DNA of 38,455 nucleotides. It comes from Solimonas aquatica. GTDB taxonomy: Bacteria > Pseudomonadota > Gammaproteobacteria > Nevskiales > Nevskiaceae. The notes beneath the pieces are model-generated. The model made no database searches and was not told where the DNA came from. It saw only the letters and a list, made by a program, of their open reading frames with translations. How positions within the stretch are numbered: position 1 is the stretch's first letter; each line of letters begins with the position of its first letter. Positions 5,823-22,753 of the stretch are shown here, piece after piece. The position numbers and the translations under genes are program-made. The stretch covers positions 1-38,455 of the forward strand of contig NZ_FOFS01000008.1 in assembly GCF_900111015.1 (NCBI RefSeq), written 5' to 3'.

Positions 5823-6638
5823 TTAACGCTTGATGCCTTCCAGGAACGGCACCTCGAGCACCTTCTCGTGCACGATGGGGCCGTGGCCGAAATAGCCGTT
5901 TTCGCCGAAGCACTCGCCGTGGTCGGCGGTGATGATGAAATGCGTATTGACCGGTGCCTTGGCGATCAGGCCTTCCAGCACGGTATCGACGTATTCGACG
6001 GTCTTGATCTGCTGCTGATGCAAGGACTTCATCTGCTCGTCGTCGAAGAACTTGTCCTCGCTCTGCTTGCCGAGCTCATCGTCCATGCGCTTGAACACGC
6101 CGTGCACGCCGGAGACGTGCGGCAGGCTGCCGGGTTCCAGCATGTAGGGATAATGCGTCTCGCCCAGATTCAGGAAATGGAAGCTCGGTTCGTCTTCGTC
6201 GAACTCGATTTCCTTGACCATGCCGGCAAAGTCATTGTGATTGGCCATCAGCTTGTAGTCGTCGAAATGACGGTTCAGATGGCTGGTGGGATTGAGCACC
6301 GGCATCGACACGCGTGCCACGGTGCGATAGCCCTGGTCCTGCAGCACCTTGGGCAGCGACAGCTGCGGCACGAAGCTCTTGAACGACAGACCGTCGATGC
6401 CGAGCCGATCCACCCACTTCACGAAGTCCTTCTTGTAGACCTCGGAGGCGAACACGCCCTGCGGGCTGTCGTGCGGAATCATGCCCATCAGATAGGTGTA
6501 GTGGGACGGGCTGGTCCAGGACGCGTAGGCGTAGCGGCGCTCACCGGCGCCGATGCGATCCATGTTCGGGGTGCGCGCGGCCTTGTAGCTGTCGAAACGG
6601 CAGCTGTCCATGATGATGAAAACGAGGTTCTTGCTCAT
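5823..6638 (-). CDS. Sulfatase-like / alkaline-phosphatase-superfamily protein with a Thr at the nucleophile position
   Basis: A 271-residue protein of the alkaline phosphatase/sulfatase fold. The N-terminus has the metal-binding Asp11 in IIMDSCRFDS. The nucleophile region reads T42-S-P-S-H46, where true sulfatases have Cys/Ser-x-Pro-x-Arg. Asp239-His240 (TADHGE) and His252 (FGHG) supply further metal ligands. It has no signal peptide, so it is probably cytoplasmic, and it is shorter than a typical sulfatase of about 450-550 residues. Because Thr rather than a formylglycine precursor sits in the active site, I infer phosphate-ester hydrolysis or phospho-group transfer rather than sulfate cleavage. 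It is the first gene of an operon with the PKS, 42 bases apart, so it may act on the PKS product or its headgroup. No clear Shine-Dalgarno is seen; the start was chosen because MSKNLVFIIMD begins directly with the first beta-strand. Confidence 0.8.
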   Translation of the reverse strand: MSKNLVFIIMDSCRFDSYKAARTPNMDRIGAGERRYAYASWTSPSHYTYLMGMIPHDSPQGVFASEVYKKDFVKWVDRLGIDGLSFKSFVPQLSLPKVLQDQGYRTVARVSMPVLNPTSHLNRHFDDYKLMANHNDFAGMVKEIEFDEDEPSFHFLNLGETHYPYMLEPGSLPHVSGVHGVFKRMDDELGKQSEDKFFDDEQMKSLHQQQIKTVEYVDTVLEGLIAKAPVNTHFIITADHGECFGENGYFGHGPIVHEKVLEVPFLEGIKR

Positions 6639-7055: not shown

Positions 7056-7898
7056 TCAGCTGTAGGGGTTTGGCGTACGTGCCGCGGTCTCGGCGGGCAG
7101 TTCGAACAGACGCCAGTCATCGAGGCGCAGCGCGGTGAGCCGCCCGCCCCAGACGTAGCCGGTGTCCAGGCCCCAGACCTGGTGTTCCGGCCAATGCACC
7201 CGGCCCAGCGTCGACCAGTGTCCGAAGACGATGGTGGAGCGCCTGCTGCGTCGCTGCGGCAGTGCGAACCAGGGCAGCAGCGAGCCGGCATTTTGCCCGG
7301 GACCGAGCTTGTGCTTGAAGTCGAAGTCCCCTTCGGGCGTGCACATGCGCGCGCGGGTGAGGATGTTGACGATGGCGCGCAGGCGCTCGATGCCGCGCAG
7401 CTCGTCCGACCAGCGCTGCGGACGATTGCCGTACATCTGCAGCAGGAAGTCGTGAGCGCGAGCCGGTTCGCGCAGCATGGTTTCGACTTCGTGCGCCAGG
7501 GCCAGGGTCTGCGCCTGCGTCCACTGCGGCGCGACGCCGGCATGCACCAGCAGCACCGCGTGCTCACGTTCGCGCCAGGCCATGCGCTGCCCTCTGAGCC
7601 AGTGCAGCAGGCGTTCGGCCTCGGGGGCCTTGAGCACGCTGTCCAGACCGTCCTCGGGATCGCCGTACTCGCCCTTGGCGGCCAGGGCCAGCAGATGCAG
7701 ATCGTGATTGCCCAGCACGGTCAGGGCGCGGGCGCCCAGCGACCGGACCAGCTGCAGACAGCCCAGCGAATCGGGGCCGCGCGCCACCAGATCGCCGGTC
7801 AGCAGCAGGCGATCGTCACGGGAGAAACGGATTTTCGCGAGCAGTGCTTCGAGTCCCGCACGGCAGCCCTGCAGATCGCCGACGACATAAGTGGCCAT
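7056..7898 (-). CDS. apaH: Symmetrical bis(5'-nucleosyl)-tetraphosphatase (ApaH)
   Basis: A 280-residue metallophosphoesterase that hydrolyses diadenosine tetraphosphate (Ap4A) to two ADP in the cytosol. In bacteria ApaH also removes Np4-type RNA caps. The calcineurin-like metal-site blocks are present in order: GDLQG (7-11), GDLVARGPDS (35-44), GNHD (63-66), LVHAG, and FGHW near the C-terminus. The length matches the family (about 270-280). The start fits the usual ApaH N-terminus MATYxxGD. The usual partners apaG and rsmA/ksgA are not next to it; instead there is a short putative ORF upstream and the arabinose module beyond that. The ribosome-binding site is weak. Confidence 0.95.
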   Translation of the reverse strand: MATYVVGDLQGCRAGLEALLAKIRFSRDDRLLLTGDLVARGPDSLGCLQLVRSLGARALTVLGNHDLHLLALAAKGEYGDPEDGLDSVLKAPEAERLLHWLRGQRMAWREREHAVLLVHAGVAPQWTQAQTLALAHEVETMLREPARAHDFLLQMYGNRPQRWSDELRGIERLRAIVNILTRARMCTPEGDFDFKHKLGPGQNAGSLLPWFALPQRRSRRSTIVFGHWSTLGRVHWPEHQVWGLDTGYVWGGRLTALRLDDWRLFELPAETAARTPNPYS

Positions 7899-7904
7899 GA
7901 ACGA

Positions 7905-8066
7905 CTAAGGCCTGTTGACGCCATGGCGCTCGCGGCGACACAGCTCGTTCTGGCGCAGGGCGAGGCGGCAGGTGCGCCGCCGGGTGCATCCCAGCCAGCG
8001 GCTGCCCAGGCCGTCGCGCGCCGCAACGGCGCCGTCCCTTTCGGCAGCAAGGCAGCGATCATCCAT
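7905..8066 (-). CDS. Putative 53-residue Arg/Cys-rich small protein, uncertain
   Basis: This ATG-initiated frame of 53 codons plus TAG fills almost all the space between two inverted-repeat arms and stops 6 bases before the apaH start. Third positions are mostly G or C, as in neighbouring genes. The product (begins MDDRCLAAERDG) has four Cys (5, 27, 33, 43) and many Arg in its second half (TRRRTCRL). I recognise no family. No Shine-Dalgarno is visible, and because the ORF nearly coincides with a repeat-bounded segment it could be a chance frame or the remnant of a mobile element. It is listed so that it can be tested. Confidence 0.25.
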   Translation of the reverse strand: MDDRCLAAERDGAVAARDGLGSRWLGCTRRRTCRLALRQNELCRRERHGVNRP

Positions 8067-8080
8067 GGTGTTGACAGGCC
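7909..8080. repeat. 172-bp segment bounded by 18-bp imperfect inverted repeats (possible MITE-like element)
   Basis: The left arm at 7909-7926 (GGCCTGTTGACGCCATGG) and the right arm at 8063-8080 (CCATGGTGTTGACAGGCC) are inverted copies matching at 15 of 18 positions. In a plus-strand RNA the three mismatches would all be G-U pairs, giving an 18-pair stem. No flanking target-site duplication is obvious. It could be a small non-autonomous element, a REP-like repeat, or a structured leader. Confidence 0.45.
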
Positions 8081-8130
8081 CTGAGGTGGAAGATGGATCA
8101 GCGCGCAGTGTAGCCGCGCGCTGCCTCTGC

Positions 8131-8865
8131 CTACAGACGCAGGCGGCGGAACAGTGGCTCCGGGATGAGACGGATCAGCAGCATCAGCCAGCGCCACCAG
8201 CCGGGCAGATAGACCACCGCGCGGCCTTGCTCGATGGCGCGGACGATGCCGGCGGCGATGGTCTCGGGCTGCGCCCACAAGGCGTTCTTGGCGAAGTCGC
8301 GCGTCATCGGCGTATCGACGAAGCCGGGCTTGATGGTCAGCACGTTCACGCCGCTGCCGTGCAGGCGCTGGCGCAAGCCGCTCAGAAATGCGGCGACGGC
8401 GGCCTTGGCACTGCCGTAGACATAGTTGGAGGCGCGACCGCGATCGCCGGCCACGGAACCGATCACCGCCAGCGTGCCGTGGCCCTGCGCGCGCAGGGCC
8501 TCGCCCAGCAGCGTGGCCAGCTCCAGCACGCTCAGGGCATTGATCCGGTAGGCCTCGTGCAGGGCTTCCAGCGCGTGCTCGCAGCGCGCCTGGTCGGGCA
8601 GGCTGCCATGCGCGATCAGCACGATGTCCGGCATGCCGATGCCGGACAGCGCATCCAGCAGTGACTGTGGCGGCAGCCCGGCGTCGTAGCGCAGGCAGTG
8701 CACGGCAGCGGCGCCGCGCAGGCGCAGGTCGGCGGCGATGGCCTCGCCGCGCGGCGCATCACGCGCGGCCAGCAGCAGCTGTGCGCCGCGTGCCGCCCAG
8801 ATCCGCGCGCAGGCCTGGGCGATGGCGGAGGTGGCGCCGATGATCAGCACACGCAACTCGTTCAA
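8131..8865 (-). CDS. Short-chain dehydrogenase, DprE2-like (polyprenyl-phosphoryl 2-keto-pentose reductase)
   Basis: A 244-residue NAD(P)-dependent short-chain dehydrogenase. The cofactor motif is GATSAIA near the N-terminus, followed by the structural Asn in RINALS, the active-site Ser in IGSVAG and the Tyr/Lys pair in YVYGSAKAA. In mycobacteria DprE2 reduces the 2-keto intermediate made by DprE1 to decaprenyl-phosphoryl-arabinose. Direct linkage to a DprE1-like gene supports this role here. The start is TTG: it overlaps the DprE1 stop (TTGA at 8865-8862), has GGAG about five bases upstream, and the next in-frame ATG is far inside the fold. The C-terminus has a hydrophobic, basic tail (WWRWLMLLIRLIPEPLFRR), suggesting membrane association close to the lipid substrate. 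It is the last gene of the four-gene operon. Confidence 0.88.
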   Translation of the reverse strand: MNELRVLIIGATSAIAQACARIWAARGAQLLLAARDAPRGEAIAADLRLRGAAAVHCLRYDAGLPPQSLLDALSGIGMPDIVLIAHGSLPDQARCEHALEALHEAYRINALSVLELATLLGEALRAQGHGTLAVIGSVAGDRGRASNYVYGSAKAAVAAFLSGLRQRLHGSGVNVLTIKPGFVDTPMTRDFAKNALWAQPETIAAGIVRAIEQGRAVVYLPGWWRWLMLLIRLIPEPLFRRLRL

Positions 8866-10160
8866 GAATGCTCCAGACGGCGCCAGAAGGAGGAGCTGAA
8901 CGCCGGATCGATATGCTGCGTGAAGTCGCCGAGCGCGGGATAGCCCCGGCGAAAACTTTCGGCGGACATGCAGGCGTCCTTGGCGGCATACAGACGCCCG
9001 CCGGCGGCCAGGGCGATGGCTTCCAGTTGCGCCAGCAACGCGGTGGTGCGCGCGCCGCGATTGGCGAAGTCCAGGGCCAGGGTGGTGCCGGGCGCCGGAA
9101 AGCTCAGCAGACCCGGCGAGCGCAGCCCGCCGAAGGTCTTCAGCACCGCCAGGAACGAGCCCTGGCCGCTGGCGGCGATCAGCTCCAGCATCTGCGCGAT
9201 GGCCGCGCGCGCCTGGGCGGGCGGCACCAGACACTGGAACTGGTAGAAGCCGCGCGGCCCGTACAGGCGGTTCCAGTGCGCGATGCGGTCCAGCGGGTAG
9301 AAGAAACTCTGCCAATGCCAGCGTTGCGCGCTGCGCTGCGCGCCGGGGCGATGGTAGTAGAGCGTGTTGAAGGCGCGCAGGCTCAGCGCGTTCAAGGGCG
9401 ACAGCGGTGGCGTGAAGAACAGGCGCAGCGCGCGCGGCGGCGCCGGTGCGGCGCCCGCCGCATGGCGCGCGCGCTCGAACACGCCGCGTCCCAGGGCGGC
9501 GCCGCGGGCACTGCAATCCACCCAGGCCACGGTATAGGGCCAGTGCGGCGCCGACTCGGCTTCCAGCGCGAAGTATTCCGCCAGATTGGCGAAGCGCAGG
9601 CTGTCGCCCTGCATCGCCGCGCCGGCCACGCGCTGCAGGCGGATGCAGGCGCTCAGGATCAGGCCGGTGAGACCCAGGCCGCCGATGGTGGCGGCGAACA
9701 GCGCCGGATTCTCCTGCGCCGAGCAGTGCCGCACGCGGCCATCGGAACGCAGCAGTTTCAGGCTCTGCACATGACAGCCGAAGCTGCCGGCGCGGTGATG
9801 ATTCTTGCCATGCACATCGCAGGCGATGGCGCCGCCCACCGATACCTGCTGCGTGCCCGGCGTCACCGCCGGAAACCAGCCCTGCGGCAGGCACAGGGCG
9901 ATGATCTCGCCCAGGGTGAGGCCGGCCTCGCACTCCAGCAGGCCTTGCTGCGCATCGAAGGCGATGAAGCGGTCCAGCCGCCGGGTGTCGAGGATATGGC
10001 CGCCGTCGTTGACCGCGACATCGCCATAGGAGCGGCTCTGGCCGCGTGCCAGATAGTGCTCGCCCGGCGCGAAGCGCGGTTGTTCGAAGCGGTCGCGCAG
10101 GGTCTGCACCGCTTCGCGCGGGTGCAGCAGCCGGCCCCAGCCCTGCGCTGCGGCGCTCAC
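8862..10160 (-). CDS. FAD-binding oxidoreductase, DprE1-like (polyprenyl-phosphoryl-ribose 2-epimerase oxidase subunit)
   Basis: A 432-residue flavoprotein of the VAO/PCMH family. It is predicted to oxidise the ribose 2-hydroxyl of polyprenyl-phosphoryl-ribose, the first half of the two-step epimerisation to arabinose. The FAD domain has RGQSRSYGDVAVN and VSVGGAIACDVHGKNHH, very close to the mycobacterial DprE1 sequence as I remember it. The C-terminus (YAAKDACMSAESFRRGYP ... FWRRLE) also follows the DprE1 ending. The start is GTG at 10160, overlapping the TGA of the upstream HAD-UbiA gene (GTGA), and the length is near the 461 residues of mycobacterial DprE1. It overlaps the SDR downstream by four bases, so the two subunits are probably translationally coupled. 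Confidence 0.9.
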   Translation of the reverse strand: MSAAAQGWGRLLHPREAVQTLRDRFEQPRFAPGEHYLARGQSRSYGDVAVNDGGHILDTRRLDRFIAFDAQQGLLECEAGLTLGEIIALCLPQGWFPAVTPGTQQVSVGGAIACDVHGKNHHRAGSFGCHVQSLKLLRSDGRVRHCSAQENPALFAATIGGLGLTGLILSACIRLQRVAGAAMQGDSLRFANLAEYFALEAESAPHWPYTVAWVDCSARGAALGRGVFERARHAAGAAPAPPRALRLFFTPPLSPLNALSLRAFNTLYYHRPGAQRSAQRWHWQSFFYPLDRIAHWNRLYGPRGFYQFQCLVPPAQARAAIAQMLELIAASGQGSFLAVLKTFGGLRSPGLLSFPAPGTTLALDFANRGARTTALLAQLEAIALAAGGRLYAAKDACMSAESFRRGYPALGDFTQHIDPAFSSSFWRRLEHS

Positions 10161-11620
10161 GCCGCCGCCCAGAGAATGGCGAGGCCCAGCAGCGCAATCA
10201 CGCGGCTGCTGCGGTCGCGCAGGGCAAAGACCGTGGGATCGTCGTGCATGCCGCCACGGCTGGTGATCAGCCACACGCGGGCGATCCAGTACAGCATCAG
10301 CGGACACAGCAACCACAGCAGCTGCGGCTGCTGATACAGGCGCTGCGAGGCGGGGCTGTTGATGTACAGGGCCAGCACCAGCACCGCGATGAAGCCCGAG
10401 GAACAGCCCAGGGCCAGCAGCAGCGGGGCATCGGCCGGCGTGTAGCCGCGTTCCCTGTCCTGCGGGCTGTCGTCCGCGCCCCATTTGGCGCGGAACTCCG
10501 CGTAGCGCTTGACGATGCCCAGGCTCAGGAACATGAACACCGCGAAGGCCAGCAGCCAGAACGAGGCTTCGATGCCGGTGGCGCTGCTGCCCGCGAAAAT
10601 GCGCAGGGTGTAGAGCGCGGCCAGCAGGCTGACGTCGAGCAGGGCCTGGGTCTTGAAGTAAAGGCTGTAGGCGCTGCTCAGCAGCAGATACAGAGCCAGC
10701 ACGGCGGCAAAGGCCGGCGATACCGCCAGGGCCAGCGCGATCGCCAGCAGCACCAGCACGGCGGCCGCGCGCAGACCCTGCACCGCGCGCAGCGCGCCGC
10801 TGGCAAAGGGCCGGCTGCGCTTGCGCGGGTGGTGACGGTCGGCGGCCAGGTCGAAGAGATCGTTCTGGATGTACACGCTGGAGGCGCACAGCGAAAACGC
10901 CAGGAAGGCCACCAGGGTCTGGGTCAGCGCCAGCGTGTCCTGCAGGCGGTGCGCCAGCAGCAATGGCAGGAACACCAGCAGGTTCTTGATCCACTGATGC
11001 GGACGCATCGCCTGCCAGAGCAGGCCCAGGCCCGGCGGCGCCGTGGCCAGCTGCTGCAGCTGTGGCAGCTCCCGGCGCAGGCGCTGCGCCAGCCCCACAT
11101 CGTGTCCCACCAGGATGGCCTCACGCGCGCTGGCGAACACCGGGCGATCCACCGCCGCATCGCCGATGTAGTCGTAGCCCTGCTCGCCGTAGCGCGCCAC
11201 CAGCAGCTCGCGCTTGGCCGCGCCGCGCAGATTGTGGGCGCCGTCGCTGGCCAGCACCTCGTCGAACAGTTCCAGGTGCGCGGCCAGGGCTTCGGCCAGA
11301 CGCCGGTCGCTGGCGGTGACCAGCACCAGGCGCCGGCCGGCCTCGCGGGCCTGCCGCAGCCGGGCGAGCACCTCGGCATTGAGCGGCAGCTGCGCGACAT
11401 AGCGGCGCAGTGCACCGGGCTCGCGGTCCAGCGCATCGAGCACCCCGGCCTTGAACGCGGCGCGGCCTGCGGCCAGGCGCGCCGGCAGCCGCAGCAGCGC
11501 GCGCGGCGCGCGCCGCGCCAGCAGCAGCAGGCACTCGTGCAGGCTGTCCACGGGGGTGAGCGTGCCGTCCAGATCCACGCACAGCGGCACGCGGCCGGCC
11601 TGCGGCAGGGCGCGGTTCAT
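10157..11620 (-). CDS. HAD phosphatase - UbiA prenyltransferase fusion (polyprenyl-phosphate phosphoribosyltransferase with built-in phosphatase)
   Basis: A 487-residue two-domain protein. Residues 1-190 form a haloacid-dehalogenase domain with DLDGT (Asp16, Asp18), VTASDRR and YIGDAAVDRP. Residues from about 205 form a multi-spanning UbiA domain with the acidic motif N253-DLFDLAAD, followed by HHPRKRSRPFASG. That second stretch resembles the DPPR synthase (Rv3806c) group, which joins PRPP to decaprenyl phosphate, rather than UbiA proper. In mycobacteria a separate phosphatase then removes the 5-phosphate; I infer that the fused HAD domain does this here. The start (ATGA) overlaps the stop of the upstream glycosyltransferase and the stop overlaps the DprE1-like start. 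Membrane location is clear from the many hydrophobic helices. Fold and motifs are seen; substrate is inferred from family and context. Confidence 0.88.
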   Translation of the reverse strand: MNRALPQAGRVPLCVDLDGTLTPVDSLHECLLLLARRAPRALLRLPARLAAGRAAFKAGVLDALDREPGALRRYVAQLPLNAEVLARLRQAREAGRRLVLVTASDRRLAEALAAHLELFDEVLASDGAHNLRGAAKRELLVARYGEQGYDYIGDAAVDRPVFASAREAILVGHDVGLAQRLRRELPQLQQLATAPPGLGLLWQAMRPHQWIKNLLVFLPLLLAHRLQDTLALTQTLVAFLAFSLCASSVYIQNDLFDLAADRHHPRKRSRPFASGALRAVQGLRAAAVLVLLAIALALAVSPAFAAVLALYLLLSSAYSLYFKTQALLDVSLLAALYTLRIFAGSSATGIEASFWLLAFAVFMFLSLGIVKRYAEFRAKWGADDSPQDRERGYTPADAPLLLALGCSSGFIAVLVLALYINSPASQRLYQQPQLLWLLCPLMLYWIARVWLITSRGGMHDDPTVFALRDRSSRVIALLGLAILWAAA

Positions 11621-13140
11621 CGCAGCTCCAGGTGCGGACCGGCCGGCAGGCTGGCGGCGAAGTCGCGCAGCAGCGGCCGCAGCTCGGCTGCGGCCTGCGG
11701 GCTGCTGGCGTAGAAGTTCACGGTGTCGCCGCCGACCACGATCGGCCGGCTGCCCAGGCGCAGCTGCGCGAGCAGGATCCATTGCGCCGGCACCTGGCCG
11801 AACCAGTTGGGGTAGATCATCACCAGGCCGATCTTTCGTCTTGCGACGATGGCTTGCAACCAGGCGGCGTCCTTGTCGGGGCGCGCGGCCTCGGGCGTGG
11901 CCAGGCCCACCAGGTCCAGCACGCGCAGCGGCTGCGTGCCGTAAGCCAGCCAGCCGATGTCGTTGGCGGCGACATCACGGCGCCACCAGAGGCTGACGAA
12001 GCGGTGCATCTGGTATTGCTGCTCGTAGATGTTGCGCGCCGACAGCGGCGCCAGCAGCGTGCCGGGCAGATAGAGCAGGGCCAGCATCGCCAGCAGATAG
12101 GCGCTGTAGCGCCAGCGCTGCGGCTGCACCGGCTGCAGGCTGATCAGCAGCACCAGACTGAGAAACAGCGCCGCATAAATCTCGTAGCGGTAGAACCAGC
12201 CGTAACGCCCGCAGAGCAGATGCGCCACGGCCACGCCGGCGGCGGCGAGCAGCATCCAGCGCCGCTGCGCACGCTGCGCGCCGGCCTGCCACAGGCAGGC
12301 GGCGCCGAGCAGCAGCAGCGGAATGCTGCGGCGGTCCTGCCAGGCTTCGTGCAGACGTTGCAGCAGAAACTGCGCGCCATCGCCGTGCAGGCCTTCCTTC
12401 ACCATCACCGAACCGGGCAGCGGCGGCAGACCCTGAGCGTGCAGGAACAGCGCGAAGCCCAGCAGCGGCAGGGTGCCCGACAAGAGCAGCAGCACGGCAT
12501 CGCGGCGGCGCTGCTGCAGCCAGAGCAGCGTGGCCATCAGCAGCAGCAGCGACAGCAGCTCGTAACGCACCGCCGGGCCCAGCGCTGCTGCGAGCAGGCA
12601 GGCGCGGGGGATCTCGCGCTGCTGCCAGGCGCACTGCAGGGCGTAGGCGCAGGCGATGGTGAGCAGCAGCTGCAGGCTGTGTTCCATGCCGCTGTAGGCA
12701 AGACCGATCAGATTGCCGGCCAGCAGCAGGAGCAGCAGGGTGAGGGCCTGGCGACGCGTGCTGGCGGCGTCCTGCGGCCAGGACCATTGTCCGACCAGCC
12801 GCCCCAGCAGCCAGGCACTGGCCAGCGTGCAGGCGACATTGATCAGCAGCGGCGCAAAGCGCTGCGCGCCCAGCAGCGTCAGCAGCAGCGGCCAGAGCAG
12901 CGAGGAGGAGGGCGCGGCGCTCTCGCCGGGATTGAGACCGTAGAAGCCCTGCGCGATGCGCTGCGCCAGCGCCAGATGGATGTAAGGGTCATCCAGGGTG
13001 TAATCGCCATGGCCCTGCGTGAGCCAGAGCAGCGGCAGGCCGACGGCGATCAGCAGCGCGCCGGCCATCGCCACGGCCATGGCGGCCGGCGAGGGCGATG
13101 GTTTCATTTGGGATGGCGCTGCGGCGACACTATCGCGCAT
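11617..13140 (-). CDS. GT-C fold membrane glycosyltransferase, candidate TfpW/AftB-like arabinofuranosyltransferase
   Basis: A 507-residue protein with about ten or more hydrophobic helices. The first extracytoplasmic loop has YTLDDPYIHLALAQ, the DDxxI-type acidic motif of lipid-sugar-dependent GT-C enzymes, followed by GLNPGESAAPSSS. The C-terminal 120 residues form a soluble periplasmic domain. The layout resembles uncharacterised and arabinosyl-type GT-C proteins (AftB, TfpW). As first gene of an operon that makes polyprenyl-phosphoryl-arabinose, it is a strong candidate user of that donor. The ATG at 13140 was chosen because AAGGA lies about eight bases upstream; a second ATG at 13107 lacks a ribosome-binding site. 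The acceptor is unknown. Confidence 0.8.
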   Translation of the reverse strand: MRDSVAAAPSQMKPSPSPAAMAVAMAGALLIAVGLPLLWLTQGHGDYTLDDPYIHLALAQRIAQGFYGLNPGESAAPSSSLLWPLLLTLLGAQRFAPLLINVACTLASAWLLGRLVGQWSWPQDAASTRRQALTLLLLLLAGNLIGLAYSGMEHSLQLLLTIACAYALQCAWQQREIPRACLLAAALGPAVRYELLSLLLLMATLLWLQQRRRDAVLLLLSGTLPLLGFALFLHAQGLPPLPGSVMVKEGLHGDGAQFLLQRLHEAWQDRRSIPLLLLGAACLWQAGAQRAQRRWMLLAAAGVAVAHLLCGRYGWFYRYEIYAALFLSLVLLISLQPVQPQRWRYSAYLLAMLALLYLPGTLLAPLSARNIYEQQYQMHRFVSLWWRRDVAANDIGWLAYGTQPLRVLDLVGLATPEAARPDKDAAWLQAIVARRKIGLVMIYPNWFGQVPAQWILLAQLRLGSRPIVVGGDTVNFYASSPQAAAELRPLLRDFAASLPAGPHLELR

Positions 13141-14428
13141 GCCCGATTCCTTTCCGCCGCCCGCGCCGCGCCGGCACTGGCTCAGCTTCGAACGTCTGCA
13201 TCTGTACGCGCTGCCGCTGCTGGCCGCTTCGCTGTGCCTGATCGGCGGGGCGCTGAGCGTGGATCTGCAGGGCCGGCGCATCGCCTGGCTGCCGGTGGGC
13301 GATTTCATCGCCTACTGGAGTGCCGCGCATCTGGCGCTGGACGGACAGGCGCTGAGTGCCTACCAGCTGCCCAGGCTGGCGGGCGTGGAGCAGGCGGCCC
13401 TGCCCGGTTTCGCTTATGCGGTGTCCTGGCATTACCCGCCCACTTTCCTGTTGCTGCTGCTGCCGCTGGCGCTGCTGCCGCTGAGCGCGGCCTGGTTGTT
13501 GTTCATGTTCTTCAGCCTGGCTTGCTATCTGGCGGTGCTGAGTCACAGCCTGGATCAGCCACGCCGGCTGCCGACCCTCCTGCTGTTGTTGTGCGCGTTC
13601 CCCGGCACCGCCCTGAACATTATGTTCGGCCAGAACGCCTTTCTCACGGCGGCACTGATGGGCGGCGGCCTGTTGCTGTTGCAGCGGCGCCCCTGGCTCG
13701 CGGGTCTGTGCTTCGGTCTGCTCACCCTCAAGCCGCAGCTGGGACTGCTGCTGCCGCTGGCCCTGCTCTGCGGCGGCCACTGGCGCGCGATCGCGGCGGC
13801 GGCCGGCAGCGCGACGCTGCTGCTGCTGGTCTCGGTGATGGTTTTCGGTGCCGACAGTCTGCCGGCGTTCTGGCAGACCATGGCCCAGGCCCGGCACTGG
13901 CTGGAAGCGGCCGGTCCCAGCGCGGTGGGCCATGCCGCGGAGGCGGTGCAGCCCGGCGGCATCGATGCGCAATGGCTGGCGCAGGGCCGGCTCGACCGCC
14001 GCCAGATTCCGACCCTGTTCGCCTTCGCCCGTGAACTGGGCGCCCCCCTGCTGCTCGCTTACGGCTTGCAGCTGGCGCAGGCGCTGCTGGCGGCGCTGGT
14101 GGTGGCGCGCGCCTGGCGCGTGCCGCTGGCAACTCTGCGGCGGCAGGCGCTGCTGGTGCTCGGCAGCCTGCTCGCCACGCCGTATCTGTTCGACTACGAG
14201 CTGGCCTGGCTGCTGCTGCCTATCGCCGCCTGGGCCGCGCAGGGTCTGCGCGAGGGCTGGCGGCGCGGCGAGCGCGAATGGCTGGTGGCGGCTTATGCGC
14301 TGCCCCTGCCGCTGCTGCTGCTGAGCCTGTACAGCGGACTGCCCTGGCTGCAGTTCCTGTTTCTGGCCTTGTTCCTGCGTCTGGCCTGGTACGAAAAAGC
14401 GTTGCTGCTGAACAAGGATGCGACATGA
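13139..14428 (+). CDS. GT87 (DUF2029) family membrane glycosyltransferase, copy 1
   Basis: A 429-residue polytopic membrane protein of the DUF2029/GT87 family, which includes mycobacterial PimE and the arabinosyltransferase AftC. These enzymes use polyprenyl-phosphate sugars at the outer face of the inner membrane. After the first helix comes VGDFIAYWSAAHLALDG with the conserved catalytic-type Asp, then AVSWHYPPTFLL, FGQNAFLTAAL and LKPQLGLLLPLALL, and near the end TPYLFDYELAWLLLP. The start ATG overlaps, on the opposite strand, the start of the GT-C gene (shared bases 13139-13140), and no Shine-Dalgarno precedes it. It overlaps the next gene by ATGA. The sugar could be arabinose (context) or mannose-like (family); the sequence does not decide. 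Confidence 0.85.
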   Translation: MPDSFPPPAPRRHWLSFERLHLYALPLLAASLCLIGGALSVDLQGRRIAWLPVGDFIAYWSAAHLALDGQALSAYQLPRLAGVEQAALPGFAYAVSWHYPPTFLLLLLPLALLPLSAAWLLFMFFSLACYLAVLSHSLDQPRRLPTLLLLLCAFPGTALNIMFGQNAFLTAALMGGGLLLLQRRPWLAGLCFGLLTLKPQLGLLLPLALLCGGHWRAIAAAAGSATLLLLVSVMVFGADSLPAFWQTMAQARHWLEAAGPSAVGHAAEAVQPGGIDAQWLAQGRLDRRQIPTLFAFARELGAPLLLAYGLQLAQALLAALVVARAWRVPLATLRRQALLVLGSLLATPYLFDYELAWLLLPIAAWAAQGLREGWRRGEREWLVAAYALPLPLLLLSLYSGLPWLQFLFLALFLRLAWYEKALLLNKDAT

Positions 14429-15768
14429 GTGAACCCGGGCCCAAGGCCTTGCGAGCGCACTGGCTCAACGCCGAGCGCGTGATGCTGGGCGCGCTGCCGC
14501 TGCTCGCGGTGATGGCCTCGCTGGCCTGGCTGTGGCTGCAACCGGCCGAGCATGGCCTGCGCGGCACCGCGCCGCTGGTAGCGGACTTCATCACCTACTG
14601 GAGCGCTTCTTCGCTGACGCTCTCGGGACATCCGGAGGCGGCCTACGATCTGCAGCAGATCACGGCAGTGGCGCAGGCCGCCGTGCCGGGTTTTCCGCGC
14701 GCGGTGTCCTGGCATTACCCGCCCACCTTTCTGCTCGTGGTCTGGCCGCTGGCGCTGCTGTCCCTGAGCGCAGCCTGGTTCGTGTTTCTCGGCGGCAGCT
14801 TCGCGCTGTATGCCCTGGTGCTGCACCGCAGCCTGCGGCCGTTGCTGCGCGCGGCGAATTTTTCCGCGCTGCGTGGCTGGCTGCAGATCCTGCTGCCCAT
14901 GGCCGCGTTTCCGGGAATCGCCATCAATCTGCTTTACGGTCAGAACGCGTTTCTCACTGCCGCGCTGATGGGTGCCGGGATGCTGCTGTTGCGCAGCCGG
15001 CCGCTGTGGGCGGGCGTCTGCTTCGGCCTGCTGGCGATCAAGCCGCATCTGGCGCTGCTGGTGCCGCTGGCTCTGCTCTGCGCGCGGCAATGGCGCGCGG
15101 TGCTGGGCGCGGCGCTGAGCGCCTGTGGCTCGCTGGCCTTGTCGCTGGCGCTGTTCGGCATGGCCAGCCTGCAGGGCTTTTTCGTCGGCATGACACGCGC
15201 CCGGCACTGGCTGGAGGCCGCCGGCAGCTATCAGCGTCAGCCGGTGCGGCCCGAGCAGATCGATGCGCAATGGGTGGAGCATGCGCGTCTGGCGCGCAAC
15301 GCCATTCCCTCGCTGTTCTCGTTCCTGCGCGAGTTGAATTTTTCGCTGACGCTGGCATACGGCATGCATGCCCTGCTGGTGCTGGCGGTGGTCGTCATCG
15401 TGCTGCGCGCCTGGCGTGGTACGGTGTCCTGGTCATTGCGCTTTGCACTGTTGTCGCTGGGCAGTCTGCTGGTCACGCCGTATCTGTTCGACTACGAACT
15501 GTCCTGGCTGCTGCTGCCTCTGGCCTGGTGCGTGGTGAACGGTGTGGAAAACGGCTGGTGGCGTGGCGAGCGCGAACTGCTGCTGCTGATCGCACTGCTG
15601 CCCTTGCCGCTGTTTCTGATCTCGCGTCTGTGGCCGCAACCCTATGCGGTGTTTCTGCTGCTGGGCTTCTTCGCTTACGTGGCGCTGCGTAGTGAGGTGG
15701 CGCTGCAAGGAGCAAAGACGCTTGCCGACCGGCGCGCTAGCGGGCCCGATGAAGGGTATTCAAAATGA
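14425..15768 (+). CDS. GT87 (DUF2029) family membrane glycosyltransferase, copy 2
   Basis: A 447-residue paralogue of the preceding gene with the same block order: VADFITYWSASSLTLSG, AVSWHYPPTFLLVVWPLAL, LLYGQNAFLTAALMG, KPHLALLVPLALLC and TPYLFDYELSWLLLPLA. The two proteins are clearly diverged duplicates, suggesting two linkages or two acceptors rather than a recent copy. The start overlaps the upstream stop (ATGA at 14425-14428). The gene ends 146 bases before the first pilin gene and is read in the same direction, so read-through into the pilus operon is possible although a separate promoter is suggested. Confidence 0.85.
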   Translation: MSEPGPKALRAHWLNAERVMLGALPLLAVMASLAWLWLQPAEHGLRGTAPLVADFITYWSASSLTLSGHPEAAYDLQQITAVAQAAVPGFPRAVSWHYPPTFLLVVWPLALLSLSAAWFVFLGGSFALYALVLHRSLRPLLRAANFSALRGWLQILLPMAAFPGIAINLLYGQNAFLTAALMGAGMLLLRSRPLWAGVCFGLLAIKPHLALLVPLALLCARQWRAVLGAALSACGSLALSLALFGMASLQGFFVGMTRARHWLEAAGSYQRQPVRPEQIDAQWVEHARLARNAIPSLFSFLRELNFSLTLAYGMHALLVLAVVVIVLRAWRGTVSWSLRFALLSLGSLLVTPYLFDYELSWLLLPLAWCVVNGVENGWWRGERELLLLIALLPLPLFLISRLWPQPYAVFLLLGFFAYVALRSEVALQGAKTLADRRASGPDEGYSK

Positions 15769-15809
15769 GCAATACCGACGAACGGTAGCACGCGGCGCCT
15801 TCATCTGGT

Positions 15810-15839
15810 TTGACGGTTTTTTGCTGTGGCACTCATAGT
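15810..15839 (+). promoter_or_regulatory. Putative sigma-70-type promoter of the flp/tad operon
   Basis: TTGACG at 15810-15815 and CATAGT at 15834-15839 are separated by 18 bases. The region lies 76 bases upstream of the first pilin start. A sigma-54 match was looked for around TGGCAC at 15827-15832, but the -12 GC is not at the right distance. Confidence 0.45.
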
Positions 15840-15851
15840 ATGGCCACGGGA

Positions 15852-15869
15852 TCGAAATGTTCATTTCGA
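15852..15869. promoter_or_regulatory. Perfect 18-bp palindrome in the pilin leader (operator or hairpin)
   Basis: TCGAAATG-TT-CATTTCGA has perfect 8-bp arms around a 2-bp centre. It starts 12 bases downstream of the putative -10 box, where a repressor could block transcription, or where it would form a hairpin at the very 5' end of the pilin mRNA. The symmetry suggests a dimeric regulator; no known operator was recognised. Confidence 0.5.
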
Positions 15870-15914
15870 GTCGGGCAGTCGGGTAACAAAATTTCCTTAG
15901 GAGTTCATTACGCC

Positions 15915-16082
15915 ATGTTCAGCAAAGTCAAAAAATTCTTCCAGGACGAAGAAGGCGCGAGCGCGGTCGAGTACGGCCTGATTGTCGGCCTGATCGCCGT
16001 GGCCATCGTCGCCATCCTGGCCCTGATCGGACCACGCCTCAGCGGCGTGTTTTCCAAGGTCTATTCAAGCCTGCCTACGTGA
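15915..16082 (+). CDS. flp: Flp-type pilin, copy 1
   Basis: A 55-residue prepilin, the major subunit type of Flp/Tad fimbriae. The short basic leader ends at Gly14; the mature protein begins ASAVEYGL, with Glu at +5 followed by Tyr, the hallmark of Flp pilins. A single hydrophobic helix follows (LIVGLIAVAIVAILALIG) and a short tail ends in KVYSSLPT. Cleavage would be by the TadV peptidase encoded downstream. AGGAG lies 11 bases before the ATG, rather far but the only candidate. Ser and Thr residues in the tail are possible glycan sites (inference). Confidence 0.95.
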   Translation: MFSKVKKFFQDEEGASAVEYGLIVGLIAVAIVAILALIGPRLSGVFSKVYSSLPT

Positions 16083-16089
16083 TGTCTGC

Positions 16090-16111
16090 GCCGGCGGAAT
16101 TTTCTGCCGGC
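16090..16111 (+). promoter_or_regulatory. Intercistronic hairpin between the two pilin genes
   Basis: GCCGGC arms, extendable through a G-U pair to GG/CU and A-U pairs, enclose an AATTTT-type loop. There is no T-tract, so it is more likely an mRNA stabiliser or processing site, giving unequal pilin levels, than a terminator. Confidence 0.45.
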
Positions 16112-16136
16112 TGAACCGAGTTGAATGGAGCCTTCC

Positions 16137-16304
16137 ATGTTGAAAAAGCTGTGGCGTTTCTTGCGCGATGAGGAAGGTGCGAGCGCGGTCGAGTACGGAT
16201 TGATTGTCGGCCTGATTGCAATTGCCATCGTCGCGATATTGATTCTGATCGGACCCCGCTTGAGCGCGGTGTATTCGAAGGTGTACGACAGCCTGCCGAC
16301 CTGA
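16137..16304 (+). CDS. Flp-type pilin, copy 2
   Basis: A second 55-residue Flp prepilin: MLKKLWRFLRDEEG followed by ASAVEYGLIVGLIA. The processing site (Gly14/Ala15), Glu+5 and Tyr are identical to copy 1, and the tail is KVYDSLPT. GGAG lies six bases upstream, a better ribosome-binding site than that of copy 1. DNA over the conserved core is nearly identical to copy 1, so this is a tandem duplication; differences sit mainly in the leader, the helix and the tail. Both may be polymerised, or the second may be a minor pilin. Confidence 0.95.
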   Translation: MLKKLWRFLRDEEGASAVEYGLIVGLIAIAIVAILILIGPRLSAVYSKVYDSLPT

Positions 16305-16328
16305 AAGCCAGGCAGGCGCTGTCGAGGG

Positions 16329-16358
16329 GCCCCTTGCCGCATCCGCTGGGCAAGGGGC
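16329..16358 (+). terminator. Stem-loop after the pilin genes (attenuator-like)
   Basis: Perfect 10-bp stem GCCCCTTGCC / GGCAAGGGGC with a 10-base loop, 25 bases after the second pilin stop. There is no clear T-tract. It probably protects the abundant pilin mRNA or partly terminates before tadV, a common arrangement where pilin must greatly exceed machinery proteins. Confidence 0.5.
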
Positions 16359-16587
16359 TCTGCGTGTGCGGCGCTCGAAATTACAAGAAGCAGGCGCAAG
16401 CGGATGGCAGGCGCCGGCAGAGGGCGGCAGGGCTGGGCTGAAGCGGTGGAGGCTTTGCCGGTGGGGCATCGCCGCACGCAAACGGGGTCGGCAAGTGATT
16501 CGTTTAAGGGCTCTCCATTGATGCACGACATGCCTGCCGCTGGTCGGTGGTGACACTACGCGCTGCGCGTGCGTACGGTAAAACCTG

Positions 16588-17025
16588 ATGAGCATCGTAT
16601 TCTGGATTGGCTTGTGGGCGGCACTGATTGCAATCTATGACTGGCGGCGGCAAAGGATCGCCAATGCCGCGCTGATCGTGATGCTGGTGCCGGCGCTGCT
16701 GGCCCTGTTCTGGAACGGCAAGGGCTTGCTTGGCGCGGGGCCAGGGTCCAGCCTCTGCGGCATGTTGCTGGCTTTTGTCGTGACGCTGCCGGCGTACCCG
16801 CCGCGCGTGCTGGGTGCCGGCGACGTGAAGTTCGCGGCGGTGCTGGGCCTGCTGCTGGGCCTGCAGCGCACGCTGGAGATGCTGTTGTGGGCGGCGCTGC
16901 TACTGGGGCTTGCGGCAGTGCTGATGTGGTGGCTGAAGGGCTCGCGCAAGGCTAGATTTGCCGCCGCGCCGGCGCTGACACTGGCCACGCTGCTGGAGCT
17001 GATGGGCGGGCCGCTGCTGCTGTGA
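16588..17025 (+). CDS. tadV: Prepilin peptidase TadV/CpaA (A24 family)
   Basis: A 145-residue inner-membrane aspartic peptidase that cleaves Flp prepilin leaders. The two catalytic Asp are visible: Asp18 in IYDWRRQRIAN and Asp79 in GAGDVKFAA (GxGD motif). There are about four to five membrane helices and no N-methylation domain, as usual for the short TadV/CpaA type. The start ATG lacks a Shine-Dalgarno, and a gap of 283 bases separates it from the pilins. That gap holds the stem-loop and otherwise nothing I recognise. Confidence 0.92.
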   Translation: MSIVFWIGLWAALIAIYDWRRQRIANAALIVMLVPALLALFWNGKGLLGAGPGSSLCGMLLAFVVTLPAYPPRVLGAGDVKFAAVLGLLLGLQRTLEMLLWAALLLGLAAVLMWWLKGSRKARFAAAPALTLATLLELMGGPLLL

Positions 17026-17086
17026 GAATGGCGGCGGAAAAGCTGAAGGTCTGCGGTGACGGTGTTCTTGAGCCAGGGAGTTTGCG

Positions 17087-17947
17087 ATGAGCAGTACCGC
17101 ATTGAAGATTTTTGCCGGCGTCGCCGTTCTGGCGGCGATTGTTCTCGCTGCACTGGGTTATCGCATGAGCCGCGACTACGCCCAGAAGTCGGAGGCGGCG
17201 CAGCAGCAGGTGCGCCAGCAGGCCGCCGAGCAGACGCTGGCCGTGGTGGCGGTCAAGCCGCTGCTGGCCTACCAGCCCATCGCCCGCGAGGCGGTGGCCC
17301 TGGTGCCGGTGTCGGTGAGGCCGGCCGATCCCATCGGCAACATCGATGAGGTGGTCGGCAAGCAGCCGCTGATCGACATCGACGCCGGCGCGCCGGTCAC
17401 GCACCGTTACTTCCGCGAGGGCAATGTCCTGGCGCGGGCCATCCCGCCCGGCTACAAGGCGGTGTCGATCGGGATCAACGACGTGCTGGCGGTGGGTGGC
17501 TTCCTGCGCCCGGGCGACATCGTCGACATCCTGATCTTCCTGCGCGGCGCCGAAGGTGCCAGCCAGCCGCAATCGCGCGTGCTGCTGGAGAAAGTGCGGG
17601 TGCTGGCGTATCTGGATCAGATCATCGACCGTCCGGCCGGCGCGCAGCCGGCCGGCAACCAGCCGCAGGCGGCGCAGCAGCGCACTGCGGTGCTGGCAAT
17701 CCCGGACAAGGACACCACCAAGCTGATGCTCGGCTCCAGTCTCGGCGATCTGCGCCTGGCCCTGCACGGTCAGTCCGAGCTGCAGGGCGGTGACGGCGAG
17801 AACGGCGCGCTGGCGGTCGTCGATCCGAAGGCGGCCGAGCGCGTCATCACCTCGGCGGAGCTGGCGCGGCTGCGGCCGGTGGGCCCGCCGACGGCGAGGA
17901 TCGAGGTGGTGCGCGGCAACGATGTGTCCGCGGTGAGTGTGAAGTAA
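17087..17947 (+). CDS. rcpC: Flp pilus assembly protein RcpC/CpaB
   Basis: A 286-residue protein with one N-terminal membrane helix (about 8-26) and a periplasmic body. Residues 50-115 form a SAF-type domain (TLAVVAVKPLLAYQPIAREAV), followed by the RcpC/CpaB region with IPPGYKAVSIGINDVLAVGGFLRPGDIVDIL, characteristic of the family. It is thought to assist the RcpA secretin. AGGGAG six bases before the ATG is a good ribosome-binding site. It is followed 14 bases later by the secretin gene, the standard tad order. Confidence 0.93.
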   Translation: MSSTALKIFAGVAVLAAIVLAALGYRMSRDYAQKSEAAQQQVRQQAAEQTLAVVAVKPLLAYQPIAREAVALVPVSVRPADPIGNIDEVVGKQPLIDIDAGAPVTHRYFREGNVLARAIPPGYKAVSIGINDVLAVGGFLRPGDIVDILIFLRGAEGASQPQSRVLLEKVRVLAYLDQIIDRPAGAQPAGNQPQAAQQRTAVLAIPDKDTTKLMLGSSLGDLRLALHGQSELQGGDGENGALAVVDPKAAERVITSAELARLRPVGPPTARIEVVRGNDVSAVSVK

Positions 17948-17961
17948 GGGGACCCACCAAC

Positions 17962-19329
17962 ATGAACAAACTGCAAACTCTGATTCGTACCCTGCTGCTG
18001 CTGATCGTCGCGCTGTCGCTGCCGGCGTCCGCGCAGCAGGCCGGCAACGGCAACCCGCCGCTGATCATCGTCGAGCAGGGCACGCACAAGCTGATGCGCG
18101 CCAACGCCGAGGTGCAGCGCGTGGCGGTGGGCAATCCGGCGACCGCCGACGTGAGCCTGGTCAATCGCCGCGATCTGCTGCTGGCCGGCAAGTCCATCGG
18201 CATCACCAGCCTGATCGTGTGGATCAAGGGTGAAAGCCAGCCGCGTCAGTATCTGGTGCGGGTGCAGCTGCCGGTCGATCCGCTGAAGTCGCAGAAGCCG
18301 GTGGACCCGGAGCTGAGCCAGGCCATCGTGGATCCGGGCCGTGGCCTGGAAGGCCAGCTGCCCAATCTGCTGGCGCATCGCCGCGCCGCGATTGCCGCCA
18401 GCGGCGGCCAGAAGGAGGCGCCGATCGCCGACGCCAGCAGCGTGGCACTGGAGTCGCAGGTGCTCACCAGCGTCAAGATCGCCGAAGTGTCGCGCAAGAC
18501 CCTGCAGCGCTACGGCGTCAATCTGATGGTCAACAACGGCACCGCCGGCACCACCAGCGGCATTCTCGGTTCGCCCGGTTCCTACTCCAGCTTCGACTTC
18601 AAGGACGGCCCCGGCAGCGCCGGCATCAAGGGCACGCTCAGCCGCTCGCTGACCGATGCCTTCGGCCTGCTGATCACCGATTCGAGCAGCAAGATCACGG
18701 CGCTGATCGATCTGCTGGAAGGCCGCGGGCTGGTGCGCACCCTGGCCGAGCCGAGCCTGCTGGCCACCAGCGGCCAGACTGCCAGTTATCTGGCCGGTGG
18801 CGAGTTCCCGGTGCCGGTCACGCAAGGCGGTACTTCCGGTTCGGGCATCACCGTGCAGTACAAGGAATTCGGCGTGCGCCTGTCGTTGACGCCGACGGTG
18901 CTGGCGCGTGACCGCATCGCGCTGAAGGTGGCGCCGGAAGTCAGCGATCTGGATTTCTCCGCCGGTATCCAGATCAGCGGTGTCTCGGTGCCGGCGCTGA
19001 CGGTGCGCCGCACCGACACCAGTATCGAGCTGGGCGACGGCGAGACCTTCGTGATCTCCGGCCTCATCAGCTCCAACCTCACCAGCAACGTCAACAAGGT
19101 GCCGTGGCTGGGCGATCTGCCGGTGCTGGGCGCGTTCTTCAAGTCCACCACCCTGGATCGCAGCGACAAGGAGCTGATCATGATCGTCACGCCGCATCTG
19201 GTGCGGCCGCTGGCCCGCGACGCCAAGCTGCCGAAGCTGCCGGGTGATCAGTACAGCGGCAAGACGCCGAGTTTCGGCCACAACGTGTTCCTGGAACGCG
19301 GCGATTTCGATTCCGGATTTAGCCGTTGA
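17962..19329 (+). CDS. rcpA: Outer-membrane secretin RcpA/CpaC
   Basis: A 455-residue secretin forming the outer-membrane channel of the Tad pilus. It has a signal peptide (about 1-24, ending SLPASAQQ) and an N-terminal pilus-assembly domain with the RVAVGNPATADV pattern. The secretin domain includes LAEPSLLATSGQTASYLAGGEFP, ITVQYKEFGVRLSLTPTV and VPWLGDLPVLGAFFKS, the usual signature near the C-terminus. The length is typical for CpaC. AAGGGGA lies about 12 bases upstream of the start. The 55 bases after it include a run of eight A just before the tadZ start. Confidence 0.95.
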   Translation: MNKLQTLIRTLLLLIVALSLPASAQQAGNGNPPLIIVEQGTHKLMRANAEVQRVAVGNPATADVSLVNRRDLLLAGKSIGITSLIVWIKGESQPRQYLVRVQLPVDPLKSQKPVDPELSQAIVDPGRGLEGQLPNLLAHRRAAIAASGGQKEAPIADASSVALESQVLTSVKIAEVSRKTLQRYGVNLMVNNGTAGTTSGILGSPGSYSSFDFKDGPGSAGIKGTLSRSLTDAFGLLITDSSSKITALIDLLEGRGLVRTLAEPSLLATSGQTASYLAGGEFPVPVTQGGTSGSGITVQYKEFGVRLSLTPTVLARDRIALKVAPEVSDLDFSAGIQISGVSVPALTVRRTDTSIELGDGETFVISGLISSNLTSNVNKVPWLGDLPVLGAFFKSTTLDRSDKELIMIVTPHLVRPLARDAKLPKLPGDQYSGKTPSFGHNVFLERGDFDSGFSR

Positions 19330-19384
19330 GCCTGACGGGCCGCTAGAATTAAGCACTCGTTCATTCACAAAAAAAACGGTAGCC

Positions 19385-20575: not shown

Positions 20576-20600
20576 CCCCGGCGCAGGAACGGATCACCTC

Positions 20601-21820
<1,220 letters not shown>

Positions 21821-21821
<1 letters not shown>

Positions 21822-22753
21822 TGCTATTGCTGATCGTACTGGCGCTGACGCTGATGATGGCGGGGGTGGCCGTGCTGCTGGCGCTGCGCGCCACGGACCG
21901 CCAGCGCCAGGAAGACGTGAACCTGCGCCTGCGCGTGCTGGGCAATGCCGAGGACGCGGCGACGGTGGCCGCGCAGCTCAGCAGCGCGCAGCAGGTGCAC
22001 AACCCGCTGCTGCGTTTCTTCTGCCATGTGGTCTGGCGCACGGGTGTGGAGTACAGCCCGCAGACGGTGCTGCGCCTGCTGCTCGGCATCCTGCTGCTGC
22101 TGCCGCTGTTGCTGCTGGTGCTGGGGGTGGCGCTGGGCCTGCTGGTGTTTGTCGGCGGTCTGGGTCTGGGCTGGCTGCTGCTGCTGCGTCAGGCCGGGCG
22201 CCGGCGGCGGCGCATCATCGAGCAGTTCCCCGCCTTTCTGGAGAGCGTCAGCCGGGTGCTGGCGGCCGGCAACACCCTGGAGGAGGCGATCAGCTCCTCG
22301 GTACGCGAGGCGCCCGATCCGATCCGTCCGCTGTTCGTCAGCGTCGGACGGCAGGTGCGCCTGGGCGCGCCGATTGAAACGGTGCTGCACGAGCAGGCCG
22401 AGATCAACGAGCTGCGCGATCTGAAAATCCTGGCGATGGCGGCGTCCATCAACCGCAAGTACGGCGGCAGCCTGCGCAGCGTGCTGCGCAGCCTGATCCA
22501 GGCGGTGCGGGCGCGCGACAATGCGCAGCGCGAACTGCGCGCGCTCACCGCCGAAACGCGTTTTTCGGCGATGGTGCTGTCGGTGATTCCGATCGTCATC
22601 ATGATTTACATCGTCTGGCAGAACCCTGATTACTACACGCAGATGTGGCAGCAGCTGTCCGGCAAGATTCTGCTCGGCGGCTCGCTGGTGCTGCAGGTGC
22701 TGGGCATGCTGCTGATCTGGCGCATGATGCGCGGCGCGGGTGGTGATTCATGA
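21821..22753 (+). CDS. tadB: Inner-membrane platform protein TadB
   Basis: A 310-residue T2SSF/GspF-type membrane protein. There is a hydrophobic N-terminal helix and a second pair near 85-125. A cytoplasmic domain follows with FPAFLESVSRVLAAGNTLEEAI and IAMAASINRKYGGSLRSVL-type features (seen as LAMAASINRKYGGSLRSVL), then C-terminal helices. It forms the inner-membrane platform with TadC. The start overlaps tadA by one base (TGATG) and the stop overlaps tadC (ATGA), implying coupled translation of the platform pair. Confidence 0.93.

Follow-up and report, generated by a model that had tools for sequence, protein, structure and literature searches.

GT87 glycosyltransferases recur at Tad pilus loci and adjoin a predicted arabinofuranose donor operon in Solimonas aquatica

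Tad (Flp) pilus loci of diverse bacteria carry genes for GT87 glycosyltransferases nearby, and in Solimonas aquatica two such genes stand between the first flp gene and an operon predicted to make a lipid-linked D-arabinofuranose donor. The window analyzed here is the first 38,455 nucleotides of contig NZ_FOFS01000008.1, in which the operon and the GT87 pair form an island at the apaH-flp junction. The likeliest single explanation, to which we give about half of our confidence, is that the island glycosylates the Tad pilus (Flp) in a system with exchangeable sugar donors, the donor here being arabinofuranose.

The arabinose operon lies on the minus strand. Its genes, in order, encode a GT-C-like multi-pass membrane protein (11617-13080; start uncertain, up to ~13140), a HAD-UbiA fusion (10157-11620), a DprE1-like FAD (flavin adenine dinucleotide) oxidase (8862-10160), and a DprE2-like short-chain dehydrogenase/reductase (SDR; 8131-8865), with overlaps of 4 bp between successive genes. 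GT87 a (13139-14428) and GT87 b (14425-15768) diverge from it on the plus strand, again with a 4-bp overlap. Where the GT-C gene and GT87 a begin is uncertain, their start codons lying within ~100 bp of each other. The end of GT87 b and the start of the first Flp pilin are separated by 146 bases, and a second Flp pilin and then the tad genes follow to position 24356. Searches of Pfam, NCBIfam, and the Protein Data Bank (PDB) confirmed this arrangement, which a sequence-only reading of the window had already described. Flp pilin 1 (15915-16082, plus strand) was recognized by Pfam Flp_Fap (52.6 bits) and by reading its sequence, and Flp pilin 2 (16137-16304, plus strand; the open reading frame can begin at 16125) by the same family (50.3 bits).

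Homology supports a role in donor synthesis for three of the operon's products. The HAD-UbiA protein matches the Pfam UbiA and HAD families as well as NCBIfam PRK08238 (591 bits, cut-off 351). Its UbiA part matches the solved decaprenyl-phosphate phosphoribosyltransferase (PDB 8j8j, 1.2e-29), and the HAD domain, fused N-terminally to it, is a predicted 5-phosphate phosphatase; the whole is predicted to act as a polyprenyl-phosphate phosphoribosyltransferase and 5-phosphoribose phosphatase. The DprE1-like protein, a predicted polyprenyl-P-ribose 2-oxidase, has DprE1 entries as its top nine PDB sequences, down to 7.5e-78. For the DprE2-like protein, a predicted polyprenyl-P 2-keto-pentofuranose reductase, the top PDB match is DprE2 (1.7e-33) and the runner-up another SDR (2.5e-15). 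Both proteins score below the NCBIfam equivalog cut-offs (356 vs 500 bits for DprE1, 187 vs 250 bits for DprE2), which would suit a donor of another pentofuranose, ribofuranose or xylofuranose, as would the ribo- and xylofuranose donors of Citrobacter, which come from the same first step (PMC11127046). We nevertheless regard such a donor as very improbable, since homologs of DprE1 and DprE2 are both present, each with its namesake as best PDB match, and since in the same paper DprE1/E2 homologs accompany the Araf systems.

GT87 a and b are 51% identical and match Pfam PF09594 with 121.8 and 123.3 bits, each 97 to 98 bits above the cut-off of 25. Residue D54, presumably the early conserved catalytic Asp of GT87 by analogy with PimE, is invariant in 46 GT87 sequences (the two window copies and 44 from the 78 loci described below). 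A PF09594 search of 85 genomes of the order returned 21 rows, namely 11 strong matches, 9 weak ones, and 1 fragment of a strong gene. The 11 strong matches come from seven genomes, score at least 94 bits, and all fall within 5 kb of an Flp match, while the 9 weak ones (77 bits or less) are not Flp-linked: seven are on other contigs, one is ~180 kb off, and one belongs to a genome that has no Flp match. Searching at 1e-8 with the window GT87 protein found the same seven genomes (7/85). In genome G010, the only Flp match (contig C1, near 3180060-3182458) adjoins GT2 and GT87 genes and is far from the best TadA match (near 693445).

The association extends well beyond the order. A collection of 84,980 species was scanned with one peptide pattern taken from an alignment of ten GT87s, which yielded 112 confirmed relatives; 78 loci were retained. 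Flp was present in the fetched flanking sequence (10 kb at most) of 17 loci, three of them Nevskiaceae already counted, and other tad genes in 3 more (L165, L168, L171), giving 20 of 78. Outside the family, Flp occurred within 10 kb in 14 of 75 loci and other tad genes in 3 of 75, none of these with an apaH match. The Tad-linked loci span Burkholderiaceae, Moraxellaceae, Alphaproteobacteria, and Chlorobiota, with carriers that include Paraburkholderia, Trinickia, Burkholderia, a Rhodocyclales metagenome-assembled genome (MAG), Rhodospirillaceae, Magnetovibrio, Microvirga, Perlucidibaca, another member of the Moraxellaceae, and two Chlorobiota. Most of the other 58 loci are from Alphaproteobacteria (many from Bradyrhizobium and its kin) and lack Flp, an absence that is uninformative on the several short contigs among them. 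The Tad label, borne by 27 of the 85 GT87 rows placed on a tree (two pairs being identical), requires 5 changes against a shuffle mean of 23; some branches are long, and near-copies favor clustering of the label. The link between GT87 and Tad is thus recurrent and wide across taxa. Tandem runs of GT87 gene calls also adjoin tad genes, five calls (perhaps fewer genes) in a Chlorobiales MAG (L162:10703-16410) and four in a proteobacterial MAG (L171:4095-8880).

The site occupied by the island is variable. Among 73 loci fetched from around Flp or tad genes in the order (in 6 of which our script called no Flp gene), apaH is the first gene upstream of Flp in 50; in the window it lies at 7056-7898 on the minus strand (NCBIfam, 329 bits, cut-off 176). 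Beyond apaH, those 50 loci have an RND/MMPL-type gene in 27 (one member scanned) and GT87 genes in 4. The slot content, between or beside apaH and flp, is the arabinose operon and two GT87s in the window; within the same genus, it is an EptA-like protein with a 577-aa membrane protein in G003 and an EptA-like protein in G009. G017 has a GT2 synthase, a GtrA flippase, a 589-aa membrane protein matching nothing in Pfam or NCBIfam, and a 728-aa MFS/spermidine-synthase-like protein, and these clusters recur in G028 and G078, all three genomes being of one genus (one genome scanned, two assigned by clustering). The highest score of the G017 GT2 is for the archaeal AglJ, below the cut-off; a GT2 of the same cluster accompanies GT87 in G034 and G010. 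PAP2 proteins fill the slot in G011, and the same cluster occurs in G022. Different membrane transferases, each with its own donor enzymes and all next to the pilin, are what a modification cassette would be expected to look like. Among the fetched loci, L130 (8960-14325), L131, and L132 hold the MFS/spermidine-synthase-like protein, an AglJ-like GT2, GtrA, and the 589-aa protein at the slot. In L092 (4919-6610) and L101 (5956-7758), from two genomes of the window's genus, EptA/CptA-like proteins of the sulfatase fold are encoded immediately upstream either of Flp or of the next gene in the slot; they are candidates for a phospho-form modification of Flp.

Several observations weigh against the view that the whole island, arabinose included, serves the pilus. 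The first concern the place of the donor block. At a threshold of 1e-30, HAD-UbiA matches were found in 32 of the 85 genomes (in two fragments in G080 and with one internal stop in G077), and Flp (PF04964) in 68; 22 of the 32 also have Flp and 10 do not. Of an initial set of 18 loci from relatives, 15 have DprE1 and DprE2 together with the HAD-UbiA gene; the donor block is therefore common in the order, usually located elsewhere than Flp. Only in the window genome, 1 of the 32, is HAD-UbiA beside Flp, and no called gene matches HAD-UbiA or DprE1 in the Flp loci (5 to 20 kb each) fetched from the other 21 genomes with both. Among the genomes searched, the arrangement is particular to S. aquatica. 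The presence of HAD-UbiA did not follow that of Flp either (22 of 68 genomes with Flp, 10 of 17 without; odds ratio 0.33, p 0.054), contrary to the co-occurrence with tad loci that had been expected of the block in relatives. The proposed tie between sugar enzymes and pilus was therefore upheld for the GT87s (11 of 11 strong matches in the order, 20 of the 78 fetched loci) and not for the arabinose block itself.

The GT87 side also has its exceptions. In four of the seven Flp-GT87 genomes (G072, G063, G034, G010) there is no HAD-UbiA match at the same threshold, the G063 genome being 84% complete, and in G015 and G077 HAD-UbiA is on another contig than the Flp-linked GT87. In four of these genomes (G015, G063, G072, G077) apaH intervenes and is strictly the neighbor. 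The close GT87 relatives in L158, L160, and L170 have complete flanks, yet neither Flp nor tad genes occur within 10 kb of them, which speaks against a strict rule. The sole match of the GT87 profile in a PDB search at E 1 was a mannosyltransferase (9dm5, E 0.0086). Finally, no flippase was recognized in the block: the scanned window genes gave no GtrA-, SMR-, or MATE-type Pfam match, the rest of the genome not having been searched. For this reason the pathway, called complete in the sequence-only reading, is so for donor synthesis alone.

These results bring up a different explanation, in which the Tad pilus receives some sugar from the GT87s, and the arabinose operon with its GT-C gene serves another glycan (lipopolysaccharide [LPS], lipoglycan, or exopolysaccharide), having come to the slot by chance. 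We think this rather unlikely, if a serious contender. It would account for an arabinose block away from Flp in 31 of the 32 genomes, 10 of these without an Flp match, for the four Flp-GT87 genomes without HAD-UbiA, and for the divergence of the two transcription units. The neighborhoods of 15 arabinose loci give it partial support. Their contexts are mixed. Of the alternative named beforehand, a block mostly away from tad loci and next to LPS or O-antigen genes, the first half holds and the second holds in part: Pfam places polysaccharide-synthesis or glycosyltransferase genes near 4 of the 15 (L037, L253, L254, L257), a flagellar gene near L034, an arginine decarboxylase near L035, and a nucleotidyl transferase near L036 (nine flanking genes were scanned with Pfam, and only the beginnings were considered for the remaining eight loci). 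Against a chance landing, Pfam scans recognized no polysaccharide gene cluster in the window. Moreover, donor genes unlinked to the pilin are a known state in Pseudomonas paraeruginosa (PA7, Pa5196), where arabinosylation of the type IVa pilin by TfpW is established and the donor genes lie outside the pilin cassette, in the island RGP80 (PMC12369383). Because of this precedent, the separate location of arabinose and tad genes carries limited weight.

Glycosylation of the pilus with arabinose draws its strongest case from the GT-C-like gene. This gene has no significant Pfam or PDB match and a weak NCBIfam match only (LA_3751 family, 21 of 200 bits), and for that reason its GT-C label is a tentative one, given for its length, its hydrophobicity, and a motif. 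Of the three lipid-sugar glycosyltransferases originally proposed, the two GT87s are accordingly backed by Pfam and the third is not. Relatives were sought at E 0.01 among the fetched loci, without a wider search, and were found at two other loci. The closest is at the tad locus of Perlucidibaca, upstream of two GT87s (31 to 36% identity), in a genome that carries UbiA, DprE1, and DprE2 elsewhere, which argues against a landing by chance. The other, more remote, adjoins DprE1 in an arabinose operon of Paraburkholderia phenazinium (profile E 7.5e-10, BLAST 2e-09). At 1e-3, none was found in the arabinose blocks of the 18 relatives' loci first examined. The pilus and arabinose contexts thus share a gene family, though in three genomes only.

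Counts across wider samples add to the reservations on arabinose. Within the order, Flp-linked GT87 and HAD-UbiA are not associated (3 of 7 vs 29 of 78, p 1.0). Among 249 Burkholderiaceae genomes, GT87 (Tad-linked or not) occurs in 113 and DprE1 in 33; DprE1 was present in 18 of the 113 with GT87 (15.9%) and in 15 of the 136 without (11.0%), p 0.27, the overlap having been counted by eye from two lists. GT87 as a whole thus shows no tie to arabinose. In the family of Perlucidibaca, DprE1 was found in 22 of 149 genomes, including both genomes with a known Tad-linked GT87 (others 20 of 147, p 0.02), a value that rests on those two genomes, GT87 not having been searched in the other 147. Of 20 genomes with GT87 loci, 17 of them Tad-linked, 12 matched HAD-UbiA or its UbiA part, including 9 of the 17. 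The match never falls inside the fetched GT87 locus; in G096 it is ~43 kb away on the same contig, and in G099, one of the nine, the surrounding 20 kb showed no DprE1. Several GT87 loci carry GT2 or GtrA genes instead. An Flp-linked GT87 does not require the arabinose pathway.

As for the acceptor, the sugars might go to a different Tad-associated partner, or into a surface glycan regulated together with the pilus, and not to the Flp subunit, which we consider improbable. The composition of the pilins is compatible with this, and is a further point against Flp glycosylation: the C-termini of Flp show no acceptor signature, with a mean of ~3.8 Ser/Thr where the slot is filled and 3.9 in the others (no statistical test was applied). 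Tad loci also encode pseudopilin-like TadE-type genes, whose products could be acceptors. Gene order favors Flp, which is the next gene after the window GT87s; in each of the seven genomes with strong GT87s, no more than 5 kb separates these from Flp. Glycosylation of Flp also has a precedent, in that Flp1 of Aggregatibacter actinomycetemcomitans is described as glycosylated and phosphorylcholine-bearing (PMC6182317). A part in the glycosylation of Flp has been suggested for RcpC (PMC12307814).

Building on the gene content, the homologies, and the linkage of GT87 to Tad across taxa, we infer the acceptor, the sugar, the flippase, and the order of steps as follows. HAD-UbiA would transfer phosphoribose from phosphoribosyl pyrophosphate (PRPP) onto polyprenyl phosphate, with subsequent dephosphorylation, and DprE1/DprE2 would epimerize the product to polyprenyl-phosphoryl-D-arabinofuranose, both activities being predicted by homology. 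A putative flippase would then carry the donor across the membrane, and in the periplasm the operon's GT-C-like enzyme and both GT87s would act as transferases, with the Flp pilin or a different Tad component as the acceptor of their sugars; arabinose may end up on the Flp pilin in S. aquatica. The recurrent part of such islands would be the Tad-linked GT87 or another membrane transferase, and the donor module would be exchangeable: elsewhere a GT2 polyprenol-phosphate sugar synthase, alone or accompanied by GtrA, and in the window the arabinofuranose pathway. It is tempting, if doubtful, to extend this to a general statement, that in Proteobacteria and Chlorobiota alike the Tad pilins receive their sugars from a GT87 clade encoded at the pilus locus and largely dedicated to this task, with exchangeable lipid-donor modules, that of the window being polyprenyl-P-D-arabinofuranose.

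Parts of this scheme exist in known systems. Mycobacteria make decaprenyl-phosphoryl-arabinose and have the GT87 enzymes AftC, an arabinosyltransferase, and PimE, a mannosyltransferase. They share with the window the DPPR synthase, DprE1, DprE2, and GT87 families, but their pathway serves the synthesis of cell wall arabinan and phosphatidylinositol mannosides (PIMs), and no pilus. The TfpW system resembles the window in having a lipid-linked D-Araf pathway in the genome and, in its pilin cassette, a dedicated GT-C arabinosyltransferase; it differs in its type IVa rather than Flp pilin and in the separate island of its donor genes, and the available part of its description mentions no GT87 (PMC12369383). 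Extracytoplasmic addition of pentofuranose to O-antigen, with a UbiA-like synthase that has a phosphatase domain, is established in Citrobacter youngae O1/O2 (PMC11127046). That three-component system, like the window, combines phosphoribosyl-synthase and phosphatase domains in one protein and includes a GT-C transferase, with epimerases for other pentofuranoses; unlike the window, it has an O-antigen acceptor, a predicted MATE flippase in the cluster, and GT136 rather than GT87. Aggregatibacter Flp1 shares the pilin type with the window, whereas no glycosyltransferase, arabinose, or GT87 is named in the available part of that source (PMC6182317). The titles and abstract openings retrieved by searches of open-access literature described neither a GT87 at Tad loci nor an arabinosylated Tad pilus, and as far as these searches reach the association between GT87 and Tad is undescribed.

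Tad pili are widespread adhesion fibers whose glycosylation has been reported, in the available text, without a named transferase (PMC6182317, PMC12307814); for environmental bacteria, the linkage described here now points to specific candidate enzymes. Variability at the apaH-flp slot suggests that cassettes for pilus decoration are exchanged, as with the accessory genes of Pseudomonas pilins (PMC12369383). If the sugar is D-arabinofuranose, a donor of the mycobacterial type would serve a Gram-negative adhesion fiber of a second pilus class, and the window would hold the first arabinosylated Tad pilus known to us.

The remaining features of the window are as follows. A sigma-70-like promoter match lies upstream of the first flp (15810-15839, plus strand); it comes from a consensus scan only, which over 7800-17200 found 2 sites against a mean of 0.4 in shuffles. 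Downstream of the pilins, on the plus strand, Pfam identifies a TadV/CpaA-type prepilin peptidase (Peptidase_A24, 16588-17025) and the tad genes for RcpC/CpaB, the secretin RcpA, TadZ, TadA, TadB, TadC, and TadD (TPR) at 17087-24356. The set expected of a Tad/Flp locus (Flp pilin, prepilin peptidase, CpaB/RcpC, secretin, TadZ, TadA, TadB, and TadC) is complete here. Gene calls in fetched loci came from a codon usage script trained on window genes, which performs poorly in AT-richer genomes. On the minus strand, 1-5780 encodes a large multidomain protein with ketosynthase, acyltransferase, NMO-like, and acyl carrier protein (ACP) domains, cut by the contig start; the plus-strand open reading frame at 981-5618 was rejected as its antisense shadow. 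A small sulfatase-superfamily protein follows (5823-6638, minus strand), and 8 of the genus's 10 other genomes have a homolog of it near apaH-flp. At the far end, a KAP-family P-loop NTPase with an N-terminal YCF48-like stretch (36045-38453, minus strand) is cut by the window end.

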